This document shows positions 15,188 to 24,047 of a stretch of DNA of 64,000 nucleotides, piece by piece. Numbering within the stretch: the stretch's first letter is position 1; each line of letters opens with the position of its first letter. The position numbers were made by a program, and so were the translations under genes. A model generated the notes under the pieces. The model was not told where the DNA came from, did not search any database, and saw nothing but the letters and a program-made list of their open reading frames with translations. Source of the DNA: Ptychodera flava (lineage: Eukaryota; Hemichordata; Enteropneusta; Ptychoderidae); NCBI RefSeq assembly GCF_041260155.1, contig NC_091940.1, positions 31,517,875-31,581,874 of the forward strand, read 5' to 3'.

Positions 15188-15630
15188 AGAAACTGGGTTG
15201 ACACACACTACCACACCTGGTTGTTAGGTTCCAAACGTATTTATTATACCTCAAACACAACGTTTCGCTCTAAATTTAGAGCTTCTTCAGGTGTTTTCTA
15301 CAATAAAAAGTACGAACATGAAAATTACAATGGTTGAATTGTGTAGGAAAACGAGCAATGTAGAGTTGTAAGTCTGTGAGAATCTGGAAATGTACATGAA
15401 TGACAGGAGAGAGACTAAAAAAATTACAATGGTTGAATTCTATAGGAAAACGAGCAATGTGAAGTTACAAGTATCTGGAAATCTGTAAATGTACATAAAT
15501 GACAGGAAGAGACTAACCTCGACTCGAGGTTGTGAGTACGGTCAAAACTGTCTGGACCGACGTCGAGAGCTTGAAATTGGCGCGCTGAAGTCCAGGGGGG
15601 TTCCTTTAAATACTCAAAAGCTGGTATATG
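15188..15630 (-). mobile_element. Penelope-like terminal repeat, left (inverted relative to 23186-23937)
   Basis: This block of about 440 bp is repeated in inverted orientation at 23186-23937. It lies directly downstream, on the minus strand, of a Penelope-type GIY-YIG endonuclease remnant, where an element's 3' terminal repeat belongs. It holds a hammerhead motif near its outer end and two tandem subrepeats of about 105 bp (from about 15325 and 15425). It abuts the TA tract. It is an unbroken version of the right copy, without the MITE. Confidence 0.7.
15253..15297 (-). ncRNA. Hammerhead ribozyme motif in the left terminal repeat
   Basis: Read on the minus strand: AAAACAC (15297-15291), CTGAAGA (15290-15284), a self-complementary helix II (AGCTCT...AGAGC), GAAAC (15266-15262), GTT, then GTGTTT (15258-15253). 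AAACAC pairs perfectly with GTGTTT as helix I, which places the cut after GTT at 15259. Helix III is reduced to the palindromic ACGT, known from Penelope-like hammerheads that work best as dimers. All invariant core positions are present. Confidence 0.7.
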
Positions 15631-15639
15631 GGAGCGCTA

Positions 15640-16490
15640 TTGAAGACTATGTAAATTTTGGGCTAATATTTAGGCCAACTGGGGACAGTGTGTCAAATTT
15701 TTTGATCCATTGTGATTCTAAATGTTTGCGTAGTTTGTCATCCTGTTTGTTGACTTGTATGATGCCAATTACTGAAATGTCACTGATATTGTGTTGATCA
15801 GAATTAAAATGTATGGCCACCGGGCTTTCTTTATTTTTGACGCACTGAGGAGAGGTACGTGGTTGTTGAAACGAAGTCGGAGAGATGTTTTGGTTTTTTC
15901 CCAACAATACTGTTTGTTGCAGCGTTGACATGTAAGAAGGTATACGACGTTTTTGCTGTTGCAGCTGATGTCATTTCTGATTGCGTATGTTTTGTTGTTG
16001 ACCGTGCTTGGAACTGTGATGTATTATGGGTATATTTGCAAATGTTGCAACCCCTCGTAGATTGACATTTGGTGAAACGGGGCTGGATTCACCGGCGTTG
16101 TTAATATTCGAGCGGACAAGGAGGTCTTTGAGGTTAACATTGCGTCGATATGATATAATTGGTATGTTAGGGATGGCTTCTTTACATCTTTATGACTTAT
16201 GGAGTGTTGGGAGATTCGAGGATATGATGAATTTCAAGTTAGGGAGACGGGGATTATATGTCGAGACTAGTGGGATTCGACAGTCTCCCTGTTTGTTTTT
16301 GTACTGAAGGAGAGCCGGCCTAGGGATTGATTTCGCTCTATTTATTTGTTCTTTGACGAGGTTGTGAGGGTAATCCCGTTCAATCAGCGATTGTTGTAGA
16401 ATGTCGAGGCGTGTATCACGCCATTCTGGCTCCGAACAAATGCGACAAATGCGTATTGCCAGGCCGTAGGGGACACCTAGTTTCATATGT
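15640..16490 (-). pseudogene. Penelope-like element: RT C-terminus and GIY-YIG endonuclease remnant
   Basis: Two minus-strand frames fit the C-terminal half of a Penelope-like polyprotein. Frame 16486-16190 has the post-RT segment (IRICRICSEPEW, then LLQYKN..., PLVSTYNPRLPNLKFII). Frame 15931-15647 has the endonuclease end (HFNSDQHNISDISVIGI, then LESQWIKKFDTLSPVGLNI). Between them another frame reads VNLKDLLVRSNI, also typical. The reverse-transcriptase catalytic core is missing upstream of about 16500, and frame changes between the pieces show decay. The GIY-YIG domain would cut target DNA for target-primed reverse transcription. It lies next to the hammerhead-bearing repeat at 15188-15630. 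Confidence 0.7.
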
Positions 16491-16561
16491 CTGGGATGTG
16501 CTCCCGGGGGTGTGCTGACTGAAAATGTAAATATTGATGGGTATCAGTTATTTCGGTGAAA

Positions 16562-16828
16562 CTAAAACATCTCTCAGACTTCGTTTCAATACCACCTCTC
16601 CTCAGTGCGTCATAAAAAAGATTTCCCGGTCACCATACATTTTAATTCTGATCAACACAGTATCAGTGATATTTCAATAATTGGCATCATACAAGTCAAT
16701 AAACAGGATGACAAACTACCCAAACATTTAGAATCACTATGATCAAAAAACTTGACACACTGTCTCCAGCTGGCCTAAATATTCGCCCAAAATTACATAG
16801 CCTTTAACAGCGCCCCCACATAACTTAA
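16562..16828 (+). pseudogene. Second, inverted Penelope-like endonuclease fragment
   Basis: A diverged plus-strand copy of the endonuclease end found on the minus strand at 15650-15900 (shared words include AAAACATCTCTC and CATTTTAATTCTGATCAAC). It has several stops. Together with the first copy it forms a head-to-head pair. It breaks off at about 16828 where the DIRS-like element is inserted; its terminal repeat resumes at about 23189. Confidence 0.65.
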
Positions 16829-17200
16829 TATTTAAAGCCGTATCACTTCGCTCATGGGTATAGCCTATTGTTATAGGATTTGGCCGGAGTCCTGGTCGGC
16901 TACCTGTAGTCGTCGCTTTCCCTTACTCTCACCACATACGTCACCATACCACCCATACCCCAATCACTCAAATCTTCTAAGCCCAAACCAGAATATTTAT
17001 GCAGCACAACGATTTTATTTATTCGTTATTAAAGCATTATCATATACACCGACATACTGATTATTGACACCAGTAAAATTCTCCATTCGCCAATATCTGC
17101 ATAACTAATGCACGAGTCGGTTGTTTAACCTGTGAGTAACTTTCAGCAAAGTCTTATAATCGTTCACCCATCCCCTATCCTGCTATATGTGTGTCATAAT

Positions 17201-17935
17201 TTAGAATATATCATCTCTTTCAAACGCCCTAGTGAATCCAGTGAGTTCATCCATTTTTCGATAGGCATTTACATTGGAATTAGGGGTTTCTACAAGCTGT
17301 GCCAGTCTATCCGCCGGAGCTGCTGGCTGCATTACTTTTGATAGTTGCATGTAATATCTTGCTGTCTCTTCCGCCCTCCAGCCCACGTGGGTCATGAGTG
17401 ATTTTTGCATATCTATGCACATTCGAGGTTTGTTTGGCTCGATTGTAATCGACATTACAATAAATGGTGGTGGGTCTATACCGACCCGCCCGGCGGTTGA
17501 AATTGCTCCAGTTTGCAATCTATCTGTGATAGTCTTTGATATATTATTAAAAGTCAACAAAATCTCGGCAAGTTGGGTTATTTGTAAAGACTTTACTTGG
17601 TGGCGTGGGACTATCGTACGCTGTGCCTTTGAAAGTGCCTCGGTATGGTTGGAAGGGTTAAGATATGCTTACACCATCATTTACCCACTCCATAATTTGC
17701 TCGAAATTATCTGCGGCTCTTGCGATTGATGACCAGGCGTCCCTGTGCTTATGTATCTCCCCTGCTGTAAACTCGTCCGGGTTACGCAAGGCAAGCATCA
17801 ATGGGGAGGCTTTTTGTTTCCCCGTTACTACATCCTGGATACTAGGACAGCATTCAGTGGGGCCCTGTCGAGGGGCACCCTCAAAAGTCACCCACGTTGT
17901 CGTAGTCCTGACGGGAGACGTCCCCCTGGTGAGTT
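17201..17935 (-). pseudogene. DIRS/Ngaro-like pol remnant: RT N-terminus joined to recombinase C-terminus
   Basis: The upstream frame (to 17658) reads IHKHRDAWSSIARAADNFEQ then EWVNDGV, the lead-in to a DIRS-type reverse transcriptase. After a stop and frame change the text continues PFQPYRGTFKGTAYDSP, then TGAISTAGRVGIDPPPFIV and IEPNKPRMCID, matching the conserved start of that RT family. It then jumps straight to LMTHVGWRAEETARYYMQL, which resembles the C-terminal His...Gly...Tyr box of tyrosine recombinases. The RT catalytic motif, RNase H and most of the recombinase are absent, so an internal deletion has fused the two ends. It is non-functional. Confidence 0.5.
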
Positions 17936-22875: not shown

Positions 22876-23061
22876 CTGCGAGCTTTTATTTTCAGCAGGT
22901 GGTGTTCCCTGTGCATCATTGATGGCTGTAGCTGGCTGCCGTTGCTGCCCCGAAGTGCTCGGGCCTGGAAGAATATCCCGGGGTTGGTGACTTGCTTGGT
23001 TGGTATACGCTGCAACAAACGTTTGACCAGCCGTGGCGGGTGCCGGTTTAGACGAAGCCAT
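22876..23061 (-). CDS. Gag-like exon 1 of the DIRS-like element
   Basis: The ATG at 23061 starts MASSKPAPATAGQTFVAAYT..., a Pro/Ser/Gln-rich disordered N-terminus of 62 codons. It ends at a strong donor (CGCAG/GTACGT, GT at 22875-22874) in phase 0. That phase matches the acceptor at 19025, where the coiled-coil-like frame begins, so a spliced gag with an intron of 3.85 kb is plausible. A TATA-like TTTATACCCC lies about 70 bp upstream at about 23130. The function is inferred only from position and composition. Confidence 0.4.
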
Positions 23062-23315
23062 GGTGTCGGGTGCTGTTGTCTTCGCTGTGTTGCAATGAGG
23101 GAGATAGTCCGTATGGTATGTTTCCTATTTATACCCCCTTAATTTACATATAGCGTACTAATATCGCTGCGTGATGCGGCTTTGAATACCAGCTTTTGAG
23201 TATTTAGAGGGACCCCCCCCCTGGACTTCACGCGCCAATTTCCAGCTCTCGGCGTAGGTCCAGACAGTTTTGACCGTACTCACAACCTCGAGGTTAGTCT
23301 CTCTCCTGTCATTTA

Positions 23316-23571
23316 GGCCAAAGTAATAATTCTTTGTTTTCGTCCACTCTAAATGGGAAAAGGTACGCGTCTAAGCGGCTGAAAAACACACACAAGAAAT
23401 TAACACAATGTAATTTGATTGCAGCAATAAAAAATTGTAACAAAATTTTAGTTCAGAAAAGCTAAGCGGTCATGTCCTAAATTTCCTATTCAAATACATT
23501 GTGTGTGTTTTTCATGAAAACCTTAAAAACCTACGCGTGGGGACGCAAAACAAAATTTAATTACTTTGGCC
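23316..23571. mobile_element. PIF/Harbinger-type MITE
   Basis: A 256-bp insert with inverted ends GGCCAAAGTAAT/ATTACTTTGGCC, flanked by TTA on both sides (23313-23315 and 23572-23574). The left terminal repeat of the Penelope pair shows the uninterrupted site with a single TTA. A 3-bp TTA duplication with GG-starting inverted ends is the PIF/Harbinger pattern. No coding capacity. Confidence 0.75.
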
Positions 23572-23770
23572 TTATGAACATTTACAGATTTTCAGATACT
23601 TGTAACTCCACATTGCTCGTTTTCCTATAGAATTCAACCATTGTAATTTTTAGTCTCTCTCCTGTCATTCATGTACATTTCCAGATTTTCACAGACTTAT
23701 AACTCTACATTGCTCGTTTTCCTACACAATTCCACCATTGTAATTTTCATGTTCGTACTTTTTATTGCAG

Positions 23771-23815
23771 AAAACACCTGAGGAAGCTCTAAATTTAGAG
23801 CGAAACGTTGTGTTT
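23771..23815 (+). ncRNA. Hammerhead ribozyme motif in the right terminal repeat
   Basis: AAAACAC (23771-23777), CTGAGGA (23778-23784), self-complementary helix II GCTCTAAATTTAGAGC (23786-23801), GAAAC (23802-23806), GTT, then GTGTTT (23810-23815). Helix I (AAACAC with GTGTTT) pairs fully, and the predicted cut follows GTT at 23809. The core fits CUGANGA...GAAA with N = G. Helix III is the short palindromic ACGT. Hammerheads of this kind are known in Penelope-like terminal repeats, where they process the element's RNA. Confidence 0.7.
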
Positions 23816-23936
23816 GTGGTGTAATAAATACGTTTGGAACCTAACAACCAGGAATGGTAGTGTGTGTCAACTCAAGTTTTTTCTATCTTCACCCCACTCC
23901 ACGCTCCACTGGGGATCACCTGAATTCCTACAGTTT

Positions 23937-24047
23937 CTTATATATATATATATATATATATATATATATATATATATATATATATATATATATATATATA
24001 TATATATATATATATATATATATATATATATATATATATATATATAT
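23937..24047. repeat. (TA)n microsatellite on the right of the Penelope composite
   Basis: About 110 bp of TA dinucleotides. Together with the tract ending at 15187 it brackets the whole composite. Confidence 0.95.

Follow-up and report, generated by a model that had tools for sequence, protein, structure and literature searches.

A nested stack of decayed mobile elements built on a head-to-head pair of Penelope-like copies

Left copy of a Penelope-like pair records two insertions in its partner

We examined a 64,000-base stretch of Ptychodera flava DNA (contig NC_091940.1, positions 31,517,875 to 31,581,874; hereafter the window, to whose 64 kb our copy-number evidence is limited), in which old, broken mobile elements lie one within another. 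A first-pass annotation made from the letters alone had described a nested stack here, and the stack is real: the left copy of a Penelope-like element (PLE) is continuous across both points at which its inverted partner is interrupted. One interruption is a 6.36 kb element that carries a 117-bp satellite and the other is a 256-bp miniature inverted-repeat transposable element (MITE) of PIF/Harbinger type. That the satellite is nested in the large element and this in the PLE, and that the MITE is nested in the PLE too, is supported by the junctions, by the terminal repeats and by a left copy without interruptions. Such nesting reveals much of the order in which the elements arrived. The block is very probably an ordinary pile-up of independent insertions that have since decayed, an arrangement of a familiar kind. 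It holds more layers than had been named, and to these we add hammerhead-like motifs, (AT)n surroundings, a possible intron and a 430-bp insert in the satellite.

The left PLE copy (15188–16558, minus strand) is 5'-truncated. It comprises a stretch whose motifs suggest a reverse transcriptase (RT)/linker end, a frameshifted candidate GIY-YIG endonuclease, a 3' part with a duplicated 99-bp unit and a hammerhead-like end at 15290. The right copy (16559–23879, plus strand) faces it head to head, is likewise 5'-truncated, begins within the endonuclease domain and survives in three pieces: 16559–16824 (start ambiguous within ~16545–16559, end within ~16824–16828), 23186–23315 (overlapping the uncertain end of the large element by 3 bp) and 23572–23879 (with a hammerhead-like motif at 23778). 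Aligning the left copy with the reverse complement of the right, the check proposed in the first-pass annotation, gave these three pieces with 254/293, 121/136 and 294/310 matching columns. The first scored 381 against 28 for the best of 50 shuffles, although its final ~25 columns extend into the insert and are doubtful. The interruptions between the pieces are the large element (16829–23188) and the MITE (23316–23571). The limits of the two copies shift slightly from those first given: the left copy runs to ~16558 rather than 16500, its last ~40 bases being assigned by eye, and similarity in the right copy stops at 23879 rather than 23937. Both copies share the 99-bp duplication, which places them in one family and shows no more than that.

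PIF/Harbinger elements duplicate a 3-bp TTA target and end in imperfect terminal inverted repeats (TIRs) of about 30 bp. The MITE, whose type and span are as first annotated, shows both the TWA target duplication (a single TTA, at 23313–23315 and 23572–23574) and the TIR, which begins GGCCAAAGTAA and matches at 28/32 positions (0/1000 shuffles as good); in these traits and in its length of 256 bp it resembles Tourist-like MITEs of this group. When its flanks were joined they matched the left PLE copy over 74/86 columns, the surplus at the insertion point being TTA, exactly three bases. Both interruptions, the nesting and this TTA duplication are direct observations.

The junctions of the large element at 16829 and 23188, also as first annotated, match the ends of its terminal inverted repeat to within an uncertainty of ~5 bp. 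The two ends share TATTTAAAGCCGTATCAC in inverted orientation with 16/18 identity (0/1000 shuffles as good). With the insert removed, the flanks matched the left PLE copy over 67/82 columns and held up to five extra bases (ATAAC/ATACC); the target duplication is possibly absent or an imperfect short one, of 0 to 5 bp.

The whole block could instead be one composite element that moves, or once moved, as a unit with the PLE pair as its ends. On both sides it finishes in one and the same PLE 3' end, in inverted orientation, and it lies between (AT)n tracts, as such a unit might. The left PLE copy, however, carries neither insertion. The TTA duplication flanks the MITE by itself, the large element is bounded by a separate pair of inverted ends, and the block does not recur in the rest of the window, a very small sample. 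Seven queried pieces gave no blastn match (E 1e-3) in the window outside 14600–24060. We consider a composite unit highly improbable and return to the reading of successive insertions.

Order of events

The first-pass annotation had the inverted pair forming before either insertion. This order is likely and is not forced by the data, which show that the insertions postdate the sequence of the right copy. The PLE copies may be independent insertions that came to lie head to head by chance, or the large element may already have been in the right copy when that copy arrived, and the pair would then be no older than the insertions. Divergence between the copies is uneven, with 22/254 substitutions in the first aligned piece, 5/116 in the second and 12/293 in the third (first against third, Fisher p 0.033), which argues weakly against the pair having arisen cleanly in one event. 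Yet this heterogeneity is marginal, fading to p 0.097 when the second piece is added to the first, and head-to-head PLE structures are common: the available text of PMC3846280 names this as the inverted arrangement most often seen among its rotifer Penelopes and accounts for it by self-priming in one event. A pair no older than the insertions is an unlikely, if serious, contender, and one compatible with the remainder of our reading.

In the history that we favour, two 5'-truncated PLE copies joined head to head would have landed as one unit in an AT-rich simple-repeat tract, a type of target that PLE endonucleases probably favour. A 6.36 kb retroelement of the DIRS order, read on the minus strand, would have inserted into the right copy; its gag gene was apparently split by an intron, and most of its RT-to-recombinase region would since have been lost. 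The Harbinger-type MITE would have entered the right copy separately, duplicating TTA. The 117-bp satellite would have grown in tandem within the possible gag intron, where growth may have been coding-neutral for the element, and would later have taken up the 430-bp insert. We infer, in this history, the order of PLE pairing relative to the insertions, the use of the intron, the DIRS placement and the time at which the satellite arose. Stacks of this sort allow mobile elements to be dated relative to one another, and this one shows four or more insertion layers (PLE, large element, MITE and satellite insert). Neither nested insertions nor inverted PLE pairs are new, and every layer is apparently of a known kind; apart from the satellite in its possible intron, the locus neatly illustrates familiar processes.

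Features of the Penelope-like pair and its surroundings

Partial copies in tandem or inverted arrangement are a feature of PLEs that the head-to-head pair displays. The endonuclease assignment in the left copy is suggestive: a reading in which the frame pieces were joined with X matched Pfam PF01541 (GIY-YIG) at E 0.0026, its 18.5 bits falling below the cut-off of 22.6, a shortfall that counts against the assignment, and the unjoined pieces gave no GIY-YIG match. Searched against PDB, the endonuclease frame had a best E of 0.27 to a target that is not GIY-YIG, and the six pattern matches to its 84-aa frame in IMG/VR yielded none that was confirmed.

The 3' ends of both copies carry the arrangement CTGANGA-A-stem II-GAAACGTT, once one extra base is allowed in the hammerhead pattern. 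With that base before the stem, the pattern occurred at four sites in the window, compared with 0.22 per mononucleotide shuffle (50 shuffles): minus-strand 15290 and plus-strand 23778 at the PLE ends, and minus-strand 14781 and plus-strand 14862 in the two arms of a neighbouring palindrome. In predicted folds, each PLE end forms a long stem that closes an internal loop of CTGANGAA against GAAACGTT (z −3.6 and −2.9), which the plus-strand end of the palindrome does not do (z −2.3). Against these being hammerheads, the pattern as first written (CTGANGA, directly followed by a stem of 4 bp or more, then GAAA) found no site in the scan; the pattern was loosened post hoc, which makes the shuffle control weaker than it appears; and Rfam reported no hammerhead in 14400–25500 at E up to 5. 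That search returned 34 matches, mostly to miRNA families; all fell short of their gathering scores, and most lay in palindromes or simple repeats. The whole window held no Rfam match at gathering scores. Because Rfam reports no hammerhead, we claim no hammerhead activity. An exact scan of IMG/VR for the hammerhead-like end found nothing.

The pair lies in AT-rich surroundings. An (AT)n tract with runs of at least 10 units marks the left edge of the compound region (14614–14673), an (AT)n/(ATCT)n tract fills the space between palindrome and PLE pair (15027–15187) and a (TA)n tract forms the right edge (23939–24046). Both the PLE pair and the palindrome adjoin (AT)n tracts, and AT runs of at least ten units make up 426 of the 64,000 bases of the window. 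An AT-rich target preference of a PLE in vitro is reported in the available text of PMC11167929. Between the right copy and the (TA)n tract lies a 59-bp extension (23880–23938, plus strand) that resembles a PLE 'tail' and has no counterpart beside the left copy.

The palindrome (14676–14966) is near-perfect, with complementarity of 149/155 over 14667–14976 and five of the six mismatches in the outer nine bases; its central part, 14770–14895, folds with z −17.3. It showed no similarity to the PLE pair other than AT tracts among the matches listed in a self-comparison of the window restricted to matches of at least 80 columns. From its motifs and layout alone, the palindrome may be PLE-derived. 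Its arms are less diverged than the adjacent PLE pair and are perhaps younger or homogenised by conversion. About 50–60 bp after the palindrome are present on one side only; these bases and the 59 bp of the right copy resemble the optional one-sided tails that the available text of PMC3846280 describes in PLEs, along with junction palindromes. Further palindromic repeats lie at 24691–24805 and 25186–26053 and include TTGTTACAAATAGGG(T/G)TGA units in both orientations.

As far as the available texts of PMC3846280 and PMC11167929 allow comparison, the locus resembles Penelope/Poseidon-type PLEs, which have inverted pseudo long terminal repeats (pLTRs) and hammerhead motifs, in its 5'-truncated head-to-head copies, one-sided tail, palindrome at an inverted junction, hammerhead-like motif and AT-rich surroundings. 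It is unlike them in that no copy here is intact, and its hammerhead-like core differs from theirs in an extra A ahead of stem II and in going unmatched by Rfam.

Provisional placement of the large element in the DIRS order

The large element (16829–23188, minus strand) is broken and internally deleted. A CCHC zinc knuckle is encoded at 18535–18675 (minus strand; Pfam PF00098, E 2.4e-6, 27.8 bits against a cut-off of 20.8), in a frame that differs from that of the gag-like exons described below, and the minus strand of the element also has a TATA-like box. By its motifs, a 155-aa frame at 17204–17668 (minus strand, read from 17668) may join a DIRS-type RT start to the terminal part of a tyrosine recombinase; such a fusion would imply a large internal deletion.

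Several results weigh against membership of the DIRS order. The fused frame found no database support, with a best E of 0.14 in Pfam and 0.44 in PDB, and its 97-aa part gave two pattern matches in IMG/VR and nine in GTDB, none confirmed. A looser, degenerate RT pattern matched two IMG/VR contigs in stop-ridden frames (best tblastn E 0.022), matches that we rejected as chance. Internal complementary regions, which in DIRS1-like elements lie near the 3' end, were not found: in four comparisons against 16905–17400, 41, 154, 47 and 185 of 200 shuffles were as good. Nor was there any direct repeat of either end, as in the split direct repeats of Ngaro/PAT-type elements, in two scans of which one was insensitive enough to miss the 18-bp TIR as well.

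According to the available text of PMC3266345, DIRS1-like elements have inverted terminal repeats of 66–316 bp, internal complementary regions and no target duplication, and ATT is the commonest end triplet. Measured against the order as described there, our element is alike in its gag-like zinc knuckle, its ATT-type ends and a target duplication that is weak at most, as well as in its candidate RT and recombinase-like motifs. It is unlike in its inverted terminal repeat of 18 bp, the internal complementary regions that were not found, its internal deletion and its possible gag intron. The earlier label 'DIRS-like' reaches further than the zinc knuckle and the candidate RT and recombinase motifs behind it; the defining DIRS1 repeats were not found. 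Since the searches turned up neither long inverted terminal repeats nor internal complementary regions, and no split direct repeats, we make no DIRS1-like assignment and place the element provisionally in the DIRS order.

A different kind of element, bounded by terminal inverted repeats and carrying a gag-like gene, would also suit the short TIR and the possible imperfect 5-bp duplication, and would need neither the complementary regions nor the split repeats. The CCHC zinc knuckle, the candidate motifs of an RT start and a recombinase end that share a frame and the ATT at both ends speak for the DIRS order instead. We think a non-DIRS element rather unlikely; it would leave the nesting as it is.

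A satellite within a possible gag intron

The element may contain an intron. Gag-like exon 1 (22876–23061, minus strand, 62 codons) is an open frame that ends at CAG/GTACGT, the one site on the element's minus strand that resembles a donor at 8/9 positions or better. An acceptor, CACAG/G, lies 3.85 kb on at 19025/19024, with phase 0 on both sides; that it was chosen by eye weakens the case. Beyond it a gag-like exon 2 would start (18890–19024, minus strand), which ends in a stop, the same frame reopening at 18889–18698. These features predict an intron at 19025–22875. PMC3846280 describes a rotifer Penelope copy that has a spliceosomal intron, so intron retention in a retroelement is known, whereas the available text of PMC3266345 mentions neither introns nor splicing. 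An open-access literature search of titles and abstract starts returned nothing on DIRS introns or on satellites in introns, from which we claim no absence from print.

The 117-bp satellite monomers (19583–22188) lie inside the large element, as the first-pass annotation had them, and wholly within the possible intron. They form blocks of alternating orientation: forward at 19583–19877, inverted at 19917–20117, forward at 20136–20328 and 20759–21026, inverted at 21050–21243 and forward at 21282–22188. Identity to the consensus was ~74–80% in the left edge block and ~84–98% elsewhere, in the longer matches. An exact scan of IMG/VR for a 28-base stretch of the satellite found none. We considered the satellite as a foldback element of its own and dropped the idea, its end-to-end inverted match being weak (13/300 shuffles as good). 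A ~36-bp repeat occurs in three copies around the satellite, at 19376–19412 and 19428–19466 on the left and at 22344–22378 on the right (35 bp, 97%); because these copies flank both sides, a small older repeat may have been the site into which the satellite came or within which it expanded.

Between two forward blocks the array is interrupted by a 430-bp insert (20329–20758) with a hairpin at 20340–20413. The 9-bp CTAACGTGT stands on both sides of it (20320–20328 and 20759–20767), where the array has one. A target duplication is likely rather than certain, as the array itself is rich in this motif. End-to-end inverted similarity of the insert, which may be a TIR transposon, is weak (15/1000 shuffles as good).

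Tandem repeats within a mobile element recall transposon-born satellites such as Tetris in Drosophila virilis, as presented in the available text of PMC4079207. The satellite here differs from Tetris in lying in a possible retroelement intron and in its blocks of alternating orientation. It is a long shot, in our view, that the DIRS-order element normally has a large gag intron full of this satellite, moves via unspliced RNA and seeds arrays genome-wide as an intron passenger. If other copies do hold an intron-housed satellite, they would show a route by which retrotransposons disperse satellite DNA, and this is the only part of the locus of wider use.

Other features of the window

The window has content that appears animal-like: a single frame encodes 17 LDL-receptor class A repeats, and there are also glycosidase frames and a fragment of a LINE-type RT. 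The three family 1 glycosidase frames (32193–33701, 41044–42201 and 56191–57372) are perhaps local paralogues, and the RT fragment, at 45015–45476, matches Pfam RVT_1 at E 1.8e-21. A 383-bp tandem repeat occupies 7719–8601. Among the matches listed, inverted copies related to it occur within 4859–8940 (4859–5366 against 8940–8434, 92%).

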